Origin: Glandiceps talaboti
Taxonomy: Eukaryota; Hemichordata; Enteropneusta; Spengelidae
DNA length: 64,000 nucleotides
NCBI RefSeq assembly: GCF_964340395.1
Contig: NC_135557.1
Location: 13,710,161 to 13,774,160, forward strand
Direction: 5' to 3'
This document shows, piece after piece, positions 91 to 15,565 of the stretch; positions within the stretch are counted from its first letter, which is position 1; each line of letters starts with the position of its first letter. The notes under the pieces were generated by a model that searched no databases, was not told where the DNA came from, and was given only the letters and a program-made list of their open reading frames with translations. The translations under genes and the position numbers were made by a program.

Positions 91-293
91 TTAAATATCT
101 CCTTGCAAATTTCATCGTATTCATTGTGACTGCTAGTCAATGGAAGATATGGGCGATGCCAACATCGATGTCAGGTGCCTCTCATCCGGGTAACAGCGAT
201 TTAACATCATCAATATGGGTAGCAGGAATAAGAGTGCTTCAAGAATCTGTCGAAAACATTACTGACAAATGGTACCCGAATTTAGCCGATGTA
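91..293 (+). CDS. CYT-A exon 2: signal peptide and predicted helix A
   Basis: Acceptor tttttcag ends at 90 and donor gtaagt starts at 294. Enters in phase 1 (two bases TT complete a codon begun upstream) and leaves in phase 0. Encodes a hydrophobic secretion leader, a short polar Ser/Gly/Pro-rich linker, then an amphipathic stretch [18 protein letters not shown] with an NIT glycosylation sequon. Confidence 0.85.
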
Positions 294-12900: not shown

Positions 12901-15565
12901 GTACTCGTAGGAAACAGTGTCATTGCTATGTACTCGTAGGAAACAGTGACGTCATTGCTATATGTACTCGTAGGAAACAGTGTCATTGCTATGTACTCGT
13001 AGGAAACAGTGTCATTGCTATGTACTCGTAGGAAACAGTGTCATTGCTACGTACTCGTAGGAAACAGTGACGTCATTGCTATGTACTCGTAGGAAACAGT
13101 GTCACTACTATGTACTCGTAGGAAACAGTATCATTGCTGTTAAGTAATTGTATACGCATTTTGTTAAAGTAGCTCTAGTTGAGTTTATACGCTTGAAAAA
13201 CGTAAATGAGATGTAATTGGAAATAATAATAAGAGTGGTGTAATAACCGTAATACTTGCCTCTGACGACTGATCAATGTGACCTAATTTGGTACTGTTAA
13301 TGCAAGTGTATAATATGAAAACGACAGATTGGGATGCAGTAAGTAACACCTGACCAATTTCGAGTTTTCATTTTCCTGACCAATTTCGCGTTTTCATTTT
13401 CCTACACTTTCGATATTTTGCTAAATGAAAATGCAACATACAAAAAACAATACAACATTTTAAAAACCTTCGATAACAGTTATTGTTTTGCAGTATTTTT
13501 GCTTGTAAAATGTAAGTTTTTAAAAGAATTAACCAAAACGTGAAGATTACCAGGTAAAATGTATCAAATTTGCTAAGAAAATAAAAAACCCTAAATAGAT
13601 GAGTATTATATCATATAGTTATCACCACAAAGAGAAACACGGTATGGCGTATAAAAAATTGTGGTTCCGGTTACCCAACCCCACCTACTTTTTCACTGCC
13701 GACATTTGTTTACGTTTTTGAGAAAAAATTGTAAAGTCTCGCGAGAAGCTGTGGATGTGGAAACTGGCATCAACTTAAAAAGACAATATAAAACTGTTCT
13801 TGTAATGGCTGTACATCTGACACATACCATATAAAAGACAACGGAAAACAGATTCTGAACTACCCTAACTAGACACTCACACGTGACAAAAAAAGAATAG
13901 AAATACAAAAATCTACCTACCACACCTATTCTAAAAATTGAGCGTAATCGGAATCACACAGTGTTTTTTTTTTCTTAGGCCTAAGAAGGGAATATTTCCT
14001 TTATTTATGTTTGAGGAAACCACTAAGTCTGTAAGCATTGTTTGCTTGTTTTCATTACAGGACAGTAATAAAGTACTCCAGAACCTTAGCACTGGTTTGT
14101 ACAAGTACATGCTGTACGCTGAAGAGTTGTCAGAAAAACTTGGATATTCAAAAATAAAGAAAGTACATCATCAGTTGAGACGTGTGATGACAAAGATTAA
14201 TTCCATGGTAAGAAACACTTTAGTTGGCCTCAGCTCTTCATGTCATGCCATTTCGTGTCATGTCGTGTTATGTTATGTTATGTTATGTTATGTTATGTTA
14301 TGTTATGTTATGTTATGTTATGTTATGTCATGTCATGTCATTTCATTTCATGTCATGTCATATCGTATCATGTCGTGACGTGTCATGTCATGTCATGTCA
14401 TATCATGTTGTGTTGTGTCATGGTGTGTTGTGTCATGTCATGTAATGTCATGTCATGTCATGTCATGTTGTGTTGTGTTGTATCGTGTCATGTGTTGTGT
14501 CATGGCATGTGTCATATGTTGTATCATGTCATGTCATGTCATGTTGGGTCATGTTGTGTCATATCGTATCATGTGTCATTTCATGTAGCTTGTGTCATAT
14601 CTTGTCATGTCATGTCATATCTTGTATCATGTTGTGTCGTGACCGTGTCATATCATATCATGTCAGGTTGTGTCGTGTCGTGTCGTGTTGTGTTGCGTTG
14701 TCTTGTGTTGTGTTGTGTTGTGTTGTGTTGTGTTGTGTTGTGTTGTGTCGTGTTGTGTTGTGTTGTGTTGTGTCATGTCATGTCGTGTATCATATCATGT
14801 CATATAATGTCATGTCACATCATGTCATATAATGTCATGTCATATAATGTCATGTCACATCATGTCATATAATGTCATGTCATATATTGTCATGTCATGT
14901 CAGGCAATGGAACTGAATGTTAACTTTCATTTGTAAAATAGTCCCGTTATTTTTCTTTGTCAAAACAATGGCGATACAAAAAATCAAGGTGCTGAGTATT
15001 TTCTGACTAATTGACAGAATTTATTGTGAATAGAGTTATACCTGCTTAGCTTAATATTAGGGAAAATTCAGGAAAATAACGGCAGTTCTCTAAGCTATCA
15101 ACATCAGCCAGAACAGTTCCTATGGAAAAAGGTAGCTGATAAATTCGCTTATTATATTCTCTTTGTTTCTACAAGCTTCAGAACCATGACATTGGATTTC
15201 CTGTATCGAGAGATGCTGATGGTGAATGGCTACAAAAAATAGCTGCCGATAGACCGATGGATGAATTAGTTACAACGTACATTATGGCCCTACACAATTA
15301 CATGTCGGTAGCCACACATGGCATCGACAAAGTGACAATGATAGTGAAATCTAAGAAATGCAAAGACAGAAACGAAAACGATGAAAATATACAGTTGAAA
15401 GAAAATAATCGCAGAAATGCGAAAGACACAAAAAAGAAGGCAGTACGCGAGGCAGAAGTAGAAGATTCCAAACGTAGAAAGATGGAGCGAAGTGGGAAAA
15501 AGGACAGGAAAAACAAAAGAAGCAAAAAGAACGAAAAAATACGAAGAGAAAGAGTTAGATATTAA
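9899..15565 (+). CDS. CYT-B: secreted helical cytokine-like protein with basic tail
   Basis: Complete model: 9899-9902, 10694-10869, 11481-11600, 14061-14207 and 15176-15565; 278 aa, intron phases 1-0-0-0. Exon 1 contributes only ATG-G. Exon 2 gives a clear signal peptide (VKWIVTVNVIVLIVTIHLM, cut probably near TSA/RTT) and helix A. Exon 3 is a 40-codon AB loop with IFPYVTKRKL. Exon 4 holds two helices, and exon 5 a loop, helix D (DELVTTYIMALHNYMSVA) and about 65 Lys/Arg/Glu-rich residues. It is the tandem, same-strand paralogue of CYT-A. No family name can be assigned by eye. The exon/helix/phase plan is that of IL-6-type class I cytokines (established for vertebrates), so cytokine identity is an inference. 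Alternatives are a class II (IL-10/interferon-like) cytokine or an unrelated helical secreted protein. Confidence 0.85.
9903..10693. other. CYT-B intron 1
   Basis: Short introductory intron of 791 bp containing a (TGTC)n block. The long open frame across 9907-10335 has no splice support and is not called. Confidence 0.6.
10393..10513. repeat. (TCTG)n microsatellite in CYT-B intron 1
   Basis: Tetranucleotide run preceded by a degenerate TCTC/TCTG lead-in. Confidence 0.95.
10694..10869 (+). CDS. CYT-B exon 2: signal peptide and predicted helix A
   Basis: Acceptor ccttttag, donor gtaagt at 10870. After the leader comes a polar stretch (RTTAVRENPKHNRK), then the amphipathic YVTVMNRLVRDFYYLQTLVD, ending DDYM in phase 0. 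Confidence 0.88.
11141..11240. mobile_element. Intact 100-bp GTCTCGG-family palindromic MITE
   Basis: Near-perfect palindrome. GTCTCGGTTACCCAG starts the left end and its complement ends the right end, with internal CCTCTTGCCGTTGAGGGC arms and a short GGTTATGG/CCTCTGTTGG centre. It is flanked by TA on both sides. AAGATCCA also occurs on each side, so an 8-bp target duplication with slightly longer ends is possible. Located in CYT-B intron 2. Confidence 0.8.
11290..11410. mobile_element. SINE tail fragment
   Basis: CTCAAAGCGCCGTACAA and ATAACGGCACAACATCCTTT resemble the 3' part of the SINE at 49748-50110 (CTCAAAGCGCTTTACAA; GAACGGCACAACGGCCCTTT). No tRNA-like head is present. Confidence 0.55.
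11481..11600 (+). CDS. CYT-B exon 3: AB-loop exon
   Basis: Acceptor gtcttgaag, donor gtgagt, exactly 40 codons in phase 0. Contains a glycosylation sequon NFT and IFPYVTKRK, and ends TSCK. This is the exon most clearly shared with CYT-A by motif and position. Confidence 0.88.
11825..12722. mobile_element. 898-bp fold-back transposon, hAT-like, with 441-bp arms
   Basis: The arms 11825-12265 and 12282-12722 are exact reverse complements apart from about two mismatches found by eye (one in the GATT-repeat region, one in the TAAAGACACC/TAAATACACC region), around a 16-base loop. The ends read CACAGGGAGC...GCTCCCTGTG. TTAGGAAA lies directly outside both ends (11817-11824 and 12723-12730), an 8-bp target-site duplication as made by hAT transposases. 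The arms hold GATT/GATC repeats and no gene. It interrupts the minisatellite in CYT-B intron 3. A transcript would fold into a dsRNA of about 440 bp. Confidence 0.88.
12723..13140. repeat. Minisatellite, 29-34-bp unit, about 14 copies
   Basis: Unit AGGAAACAGTGTCATTGCTG followed by TGTACTCGT. A longer variant carries an inserted GACG and TA. The two unit lengths alternate irregularly. One further unit lies left of the fold-back element (11800-11820), so the transposon inserted into the array. Confidence 0.9.
13658..13963 (-). mobile_element. About 310-bp MITE with GGTTCCG ends (family A)
   Basis: Reverse-orientation copy of a family also seen at 43681, 45859 and 54203. The ends are TTGTGGTTCCGGTTAC and its complement-like GTAATCGGAATCACACA. 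The interior includes CTGTTCTTGTAATGGCTGTA and GGATGTGGAAACTGGCATC, both shared with the other copies. Sits in CYT-B intron 3. Confidence 0.85.
14061..14207 (+). CDS. CYT-B exon 4: predicted helices B and C
   Basis: 49 codons in phase 0. SNKVLQNLSTGLYKYMLYAE and KIKKVHHQLRRVMTKINSM are amphipathic and separated by a short LGYS turn. The exon ends in the same SM as CYT-A exon 4, at the same splice point. Confidence 0.88.
14232..14904. repeat. Pentanucleotide array (TGTNN)n in CYT-B intron 4
   Basis: Starting 25 bases after the exon 4 donor, about 670 bp are built from 5-base units TGTTA, TGTCA, TGTTG, TGTCG and rarer TATCA. Uniform blocks alternate with mixed ones: TGTTA at about 14268-14325, TGTTG at about 14700-14775. 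Long Cys/Val/Met frames across it are artefacts. Confidence 0.95.
15176..15565 (+). CDS. CYT-B exon 5: CD loop, helix D and basic tail
   Basis: Acceptor tttctacaag; stop TAA at 15563-15565. About 25 loop residues come first, then DELVTTYIMALHNYMSVATH as helix D. The C-terminal part is dominated by Lys, Arg, Asp, Glu and Asn with several KK/RR/KRR clusters, suggesting heparin- or matrix-binding, proteolytic trimming, or simply disordered low-complexity sequence. Confidence 0.88.
   Translation, partial: LQNHDIGFPVSRDADGEWLQKIAADRPMDELVTTYIMALHNYMSVATHGIDKVTMIVKSKKCKDRNENDENIQLKENNRRNAKDTKKKAVREAEVEDSKRRKMERSGKKDRKNKRSKKNEKIRRERVRY

Follow-up and report, generated by a model that had tools for sequence, protein, structure and literature searches.

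Vertebrate IL-6-type genes have intron phases of 1-0-0-0, and exons 3 and 4 of human IL-6 are 38 and 49 codons long. The same phases recur in the GH/prolactin and EPO/TPO hormone genes, which likewise have five exons, the first of them tiny. The five-exon genes of class II cytokines (IL-10/interferon) have a first intron in phase 0. The IL-6 gene is described as having five exons (PMC7284502), as is the G-CSF gene (PMC6389648), and the IL-6/G-CSF/MGF family carries the signature C-x9-C-x6-G-L-x2-[FY]-x3-L (PMC7284502). Upd3, a Domeless ligand of Drosophila, is reported to be mainly helical by circular dichroism (PMC7378365), and a hemichordate JAK has been reported (PMC13203501); background on the receptors is given in PMC1963337 and PMC12162339. 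A time course of poly(I:C) challenge has been published for Saccoglossus (PMC10210618). Here, we describe two genes of the hemichordate Glandiceps talaboti, gene 1 and gene 2, which lie in tandem on the + strand within the first 15.6 kb of a 64,000-nucleotide stretch of contig NC_135557.1 (positions 13,710,161 to 13,774,160, the window). The pair likely encodes secreted class I-like cytokines of the long-chain, four-helix kind, on the IL-6/IL-11/G-CSF branch or near it, and we put the probability of this reading at roughly 0.75. We favor it because of the helical periodicity of the proteins, a predicted helix B-C hairpin in exon 4, the gene 2 exons with phases 1-0-0-0, a controlled profile link to the vertebrate cytokines and the receptor pieces present in the same genome. 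An initial annotation of this DNA had already proposed long-chain class I-like cytokines, and most of the tests that bear on the proposal favor it.

Gene 2 (9899-15565, +) is complete, with five exons, a product of 278 amino acids, intron phases of 1-0-0-0 and GT/AG at every exon border. Gene 1 (91-3844, +) has four visible exons with GT/AG borders, phases of (1)-0-0-0 and a TAA stop codon at 3842-3844. Upstream of the window, 2,600 bases are all N and exon 1 of gene 1 is not visible; because that exon would fall in the N run, the phase of intron 1 is taken from the reading frame only. The arrangement of five coding exons and four introns that marks the IL-6/G-CSF/MGF family is therefore present in gene 2; gene 1 shows four of the exons, with a first phase deduced from the frame. 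Exon 3 comprises 38 codons in gene 1 and 40 in gene 2, and exon 4 comprises 51 and 49 codons, compared with 38 and 49 codons in human IL-6. These lengths agree with those given in the initial annotation, which had also pointed to matching intron phases and a common IFPY..KR motif in exon 3. Three phase-0 junctions per gene bear out the former, with intron 1 of gene 1 qualified as above, and the latter was located as IFPYASKR (1808-1831) and IFPYVTKR (11544-11567). The parts of the two genes are as follows.

91..293, +, gene 1 exon 2, entered in phase 1: signal-peptide-like hydrophobic start and predicted helix A
1751..1864, +, gene 1 exon 3 (38 codons): predicted AB loop, last residues STCT
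1808..1831, +, IFPYASKR, the exon 3 motif common to both genes, in gene 1
3052..3204, +, gene 1 exon 4 (51 codons): predicted helices B and C
3590..3844, +, gene 1 exon 5 through the stop codon: CD loop and helix D predicted here, with a low-confidence model
3677..3763, +, 29 residues of gene 1 predicted to form helix D, from periodicity and alignment; only partly helix in the exon 5 model
9899..9902, +, gene 2 exon 1, ATG G: 4 coding bases, phase 1
10694..10869, +, gene 2 exon 2, which begins like a signal peptide (candidate cut TSA/RTT) and holds predicted helix A
11481..11600, +, gene 2 exon 3 (40 codons): predicted AB loop, last residues TSCK
11544..11567, +, IFPYVTKR, the common exon 3 motif, in gene 2
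14061..14207, +, gene 2 exon 4 (49 codons): predicted helices B and C, with the best likeness to IL-6, G-CSF and IL-11
14094..14120, +, GLYKYMLYA in gene 2, which comes close to the G-L-x2-[FY]-x3-L stretch of the signature but has A instead of L at the final position
15176..15565, +, gene 2 exon 5 through the stop codon: CD loop and helix D predicted here, ahead of a strongly basic tail
15257..15343, +, stretch of gene 2 predicted to form helix D, from periodicity and alignment

Gene 1 and gene 2 are tandem paralogs. Their proteins match each other by BLASTP with an E-value of 2e-11 and 27% identity over 142 amino acids, and the score of the whole-protein alignment was reached by none of 3000 shuffles (z 17). 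Exon by exon, the observed pair score was reached by 0/2000 shuffles for exon 3, 13/2000 for exon 4 and 0/2000 for exon 5; similarity between the two copies of exon 2 was not significant (298/2000). In an alignment blind to the exons, the 3/4 and 4/5 junctions coincided exactly and the 2/3 junction lay within a gap. Both proteins share IFPY..KR, a cysteine in the final residues of exon 3 and another one beyond the last predicted helix. The tail of the gene 2 product is basic, with 27 K/R among its last 65 residues.

The signal peptides that had been described for both proteins correspond to signal-peptide-like N-termini by a simple rule: both are hydrophobic, with small residues at -3/-1 and plausible cleavage sites (VTA/S or TAS/Q in gene 1, which is seen without its first residues, and TSA/R in gene 2). 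A simple hydrophobicity rule found no transmembrane-like stretch past the N-terminus of either protein, and a membrane-anchored product was rejected for want of a second hydrophobic stretch. Helical periodicity was scanned in 18-residue windows of the mature proteins as a hydrophobic period of 90-110 degrees. The fraction of helical-periodic windows was 0.64 in gene 2, compared with 0.19 in shuffles (reached by 0/300), and 0.40 in gene 1, compared with 0.18 (2/300). All eight hand-picked helix A-D segments of the two proteins peaked at 95-105 degrees, which no set among 5000 shuffled ones matched; these segments were the analyst's choice, and the unselected window scan is the fairer figure. 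Structure prediction, which the initial annotation had named as a check, was carried out with AlphaFold2 on uninterrupted single exons, with exon 4 entered as gene 1 and gene 2 as a second row, and exon 5 entered alone. Exon 4 was modeled as a helix-helix hairpin (helices 2-26 and 28-50) with a predicted local distance difference test score (pLDDT) of 86 in the best of five models and 68-78 in the others. Such a predicted hairpin is as expected if exon 4 holds helices B and C.

Resemblance to the vertebrate cytokines was evaluated with reference stretches of human IL-6, G-CSF and IL-11 that had been verified against solved chains. In 18 exon-by-exon comparisons, each with 1000 shuffles preserving the hydrophobic pattern, exon 4 of gene 2 stood out against IL-6, G-CSF and IL-11, with its score reached by 20, 16 and 29 shuffles, respectively. 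As a yardstick, the same stretch gave 21/1000 for IL-6 against G-CSF, 128/1000 for IL-6 against IL-11 and 54/1000 for G-CSF against IL-11. Exon 5 of gene 1 gave 8/1000 against IL-6, but this alignment was out of register and was not counted; none of the remaining 14 comparisons stood out (lowest 77 and 86/1000). Four non-cytokine helical proteins (719 residues), cut into 77 overlapping windows, served as a decoy background, with a maximum for gene 2 exon 4 of 27, compared with scores of 35 for IL-6, 31 for G-CSF and 36 for IL-11; the same exon scored 17 against EPO and 23 against GH1. The corresponding scores of gene 1 exon 4 were 23 (IL-6), 22 (G-CSF), 28 (IL-11) and 23 (EPO), with a decoy maximum of 25.

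A profile of the pair, aligned to IL-6, G-CSF and IL-11, matched the last part of exon 3, together with exon 4, to the corresponding part of IL-6. The late exon 3 cysteine of gene 2 was thereby paired with the cysteine of KDGC in IL-6. Comparison of this profile with the three cytokines by hhalign gave a P of 0.0034. When it was repeated with pattern-preserving column shuffles, the score was 24.9 (probability 7.5%); the shuffles averaged 12.4 and went no higher than 22.2, so that 0/150 reached it. Against single sequences, no shuffle of 24 reached the score for IL-6 or that for IL-11, while EPO and ferritin were each reached by 13/24 and apoA-I by 22/24. Within helix B, GLYKYMLYA of gene 2 begins at exon 4 residue 12, where gene 1 has DVQTYWVLG (residue 12); the corresponding stretches are GLLEFEVYL in IL-6 and GLFLYQGLL in G-CSF, both at residue 10, and DLLSYLRHV in IL-11, at residue 12. 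A widened form of this helix B pattern was absent from EPO and GH1. The statement in the initial annotation that no similarity to named cytokines is visible by eye can therefore be sharpened, in that shuffle-controlled profiles detect a weak resemblance over helices B-C.

The genome also contains sequences of class I receptors. Six diverged, exon-sized matches with 41-50% identity lie at four places on contig C7 (~12.21, 19.03, 19.12 and 24.37 Mb). In the ~3 kb around each, all four places have CP[DN]..NSC; three of them have MWCTWD, and one has GYWSDWS. By their sequence, these pieces read like ordinary, exon-split host receptor exons of the gp130-type class I. Given that such receptor sequence is present, ligands are expected, and the C7 receptors are candidate partners of both predicted ligands. 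Profile searches of the genome with IL6Ra-bind and STAT_bind gave no match anywhere, controls included, and are hence uninformative.

A second kind of receptor sequence lies upstream of the window, as an intronless frame for a secreted protein with immunoglobulin, class I receptor and fibronectin III parts. It is 100% identical over 89% of its length to the NCBI Glandiceps talaboti entry "interleukin-6 receptor subunit beta-like", and among solved structures its top relatives are CRLF1 (6e-12), gp130 (7e-12) and growth hormone receptor (1e-7). Seven near-identical intronless copies are distributed over four contigs (four on C10 and others on C23, C31 and C6), including the following two found by genome search.

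C10:13642706-13643968 and 13666346-13667608, two receptor copies 42 to 67 kb upstream of the window

Dense intronless frames on both strands lie near these two copies. By its look, the block that carries them is a recently spread mobile or virus-like element, which may carry a captured decoy receptor. Pfam detected no viral hallmark in seven other frames of the block that were scanned, and one frame, when searched against viral contigs, gave no relative. Near-identical stretches recur ~23.6 kb apart in the block, roughly 100 to 24 kb upstream of the window, as seen by tblastn and in lists of open reading frames, and one frame matches galactose-3-O-sulfotransferase (Pfam E 3e-77).

Set beside the vertebrate IL-6, IL-11 and G-CSF genes, the pair is alike in the five exons and four introns of gene 2, the signal-like N-terminus, a weak resemblance over helices B-C and, in gene 2, the G-L-x2-[FY] core. 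It is unlike them in having no Pfam match, cysteines off the x9/x6 spacing, an A in place of the last L of the signature, a cysteine after helix D and, in gene 2, a long basic tail. Filing the pair as IL-6 was rejected for lack of agreement with the Pfam model and the signature. The Unpaired proteins of Drosophila (Upd1-3) are secreted invertebrate ligands of a gp130-like receptor. Class II cytokines are also secreted helical bundles, but their first intron is in phase 0, whereas intron 1 of gene 2 is in phase 1, and a class II reading was rejected on this ground.

Several results weigh against placing the pair on or near the IL-6/IL-11/G-CSF branch. Exon 3 showed no likeness to IL-6, G-CSF or IL-11 in any of six comparisons, and exon 5 showed it in one of six, out of register. 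For exon 4 of gene 1, the IL-6 score was reached by 4/77 decoys and the G-CSF score by 6/77. The hhalign probability for the pair profile was low (9.4%), the profile was null against G-CSF alone (21/24 shuffles reached the score), and few shuffles reached GH1 (6/24) or myoglobin (3/24). The widened helix B pattern, which was defined after the sequences had been seen, occurred once in the 719 decoy residues (in ferritin) and a second time in G-CSF. The full family signature is absent, since the cysteine spacing differs and the final L is missing, so that just the helix B core fits. Pfam hmmscan at E up to 10 assigned no family to spliced gene 1 and only two unrelated weak families (E 0.2 and 2.6) to spliced gene 2, and neither spliced protein matches the Pfam model of the IL-6/G-CSF/MGF family. 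In a library of 5.8 billion proteins, searched by scoring just those entries that have short exact words in common with the query, none of the 242 and 440 candidates matched at E up to 10. Chou-Fasman propensities called many putative helix segments strand; we relied on periodicity because this method does not separate helix from strand in segments rich in valine, isoleucine and tyrosine. Finally, the exon 5 model was poor, with a pLDDT of 49.7 and a strand (2-8), a helix (32-48), a second strand (52-59) and a helix (64-76), placing strand where helix D should run on. The model thus leaves a long helix D unsupported, yet does not firmly refute one.

The results for growth hormone bear on a different placement, in which the genes would encode long-chain class I cytokines that belong with GH/prolactin or EPO/TPO, or in an invertebrate lineage of their own, and helix B would resemble IL-6 by coincidence. 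We consider this possible, if rather unlikely; it overlaps with "near" in the placement that we favor, and the odds given to the various readings do not sum to one. The exon layout of gene 2 is the same as that of the GH/prolactin and EPO/TPO genes, and exon 4 of gene 1 scores best against growth hormone (GH1, 31), above all 77 decoy windows, which also counts against a clean assignment to IL-6. Apart from this score, GH1 and EPO, the two hormones compared, show no clear profile likeness to the pair, their scores being reached by 6/24 and 13/24 shuffles versus 0/24 each for IL-6 and IL-11.

That the proteins are secreted helical non-cytokines (e.g. lipid-binding or antimicrobial), with a coincidental exon layout and weak similarity, would accord with the lack of a fitting family match, the poor exon 5 model and the fact that amphipathic helices are by themselves common. 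We hold it improbable in view of the exon phases and lengths and of the B-C resemblance, which persists under pattern-preserving controls and the decoy background. Far less credible still is the idea that the chained exons are not expressed genes but degenerate duplicates, or open stretches lined up by chance: the pair drew no match among the word-sharing candidates of the protein library and exon 1 of gene 1 is not visible, but in both genes the junctions match, the frames are intact and the splice signals are canonical, which argues otherwise.

If the pair does encode class I-like cytokines as we favor, we infer that each product would form a complete four-helix bundle, bind receptors and produce JAK-STAT output. 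By bridging receptor chains of the gp130 type on cells of the animal itself, the secreted ligand would switch on JAK-STAT. A putative disulfide would join the late exon 3 cysteine to the cysteine after helix D, and the basic tail of gene 2 would hold the ligand close to the secreting cell. It is a tentative and rather doubtful extension of this scheme that the pair survive in an invertebrate deuterostome as relatives of the ancestor from which IL-6, IL-11 and G-CSF arose, that the pairing of ligand and gp130 predates vertebrates, and that the captured receptor of the virus-like element soaks up the ligands in an arms race.

A 2026 survey traces IL-6-type receptors back to molluscs in a set of species that includes a hemichordate and an echinoderm, and reports IL-6 itself in vertebrates only (PMC13203501). 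The pair would likely fail the BLAST cut-offs of that survey (30% identity) because even the two neighbors share just 27%. In the literature searched, mostly without subscription journals, we found no report of a hemichordate ligand of this kind. The pair are likely partners of the IL-6-type receptors whose gene pieces occur in the same genome. With two concrete, clonable ligand candidates beside receptor pieces in one genome, the question of receptor activation in invertebrate deuterostomes becomes a binding assay, and the exon layout, IFPY..KR and GLYKYMLYA provide a template for finding ligands in other hemichordates and in echinoderms, where a whole-protein BLAST cut-off of 30% identity would probably miss them.

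Further copies were sought in the genome. The search with gene 1 returned four places, all at the cytokine locus, and that with residues 1-149 of gene 2 (exons 1-4 plus one intron-read residue) returned three places at the locus and two weak ones on contig C1; neither search recovered the other paralog, so remoter copies could be missed. The C1 matches (near 31.30 and 31.35 Mb) were rejected as false, being neighboring zinc-finger frames, which by eye we take to be makorin-like. Searching the eight exons by tblastn against the window and 160 kb of flanks (15.2 kb of it N) gave, beyond the exons themselves, weak matches with E from 0.02 to 5; in the same search the two copies of exon 3 matched each other at E about 0.5. 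The pair profile found no relative in a library of solved structures, where three antibody chains appeared at E 0.4-0.5.

Downstream of gene 2 lies one further feature.

15817..15827, +, AU-rich ATTTATTTATA, a nonamer like an AU-rich element (ARE) 3' of gene 2, resembling the type of cytokine 3' untranslated regions

The + strand of the window holds 17 ARE-like nonamers, so that ATTTATTTATA at this position is weak evidence. Very long microsatellites occupy introns and intergenic sequence at ~1130-1284, 3319-3444, 8817-9360 and 14259-14900; within and between both genes they are of the types CT, GTCT, GTAT and ATGTC/ATGTT. Elsewhere in the window, long open frames at 35999-36835 (+) and 37556-38041 (+) had no Pfam match at E 0.01, the first with a signal-like start by eye. 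An open frame at 50306-50824 (+) contains a peptidase S8 pro-domain (E 1e-16) and was taken for the beginning of a proprotein-convertase-like gene.

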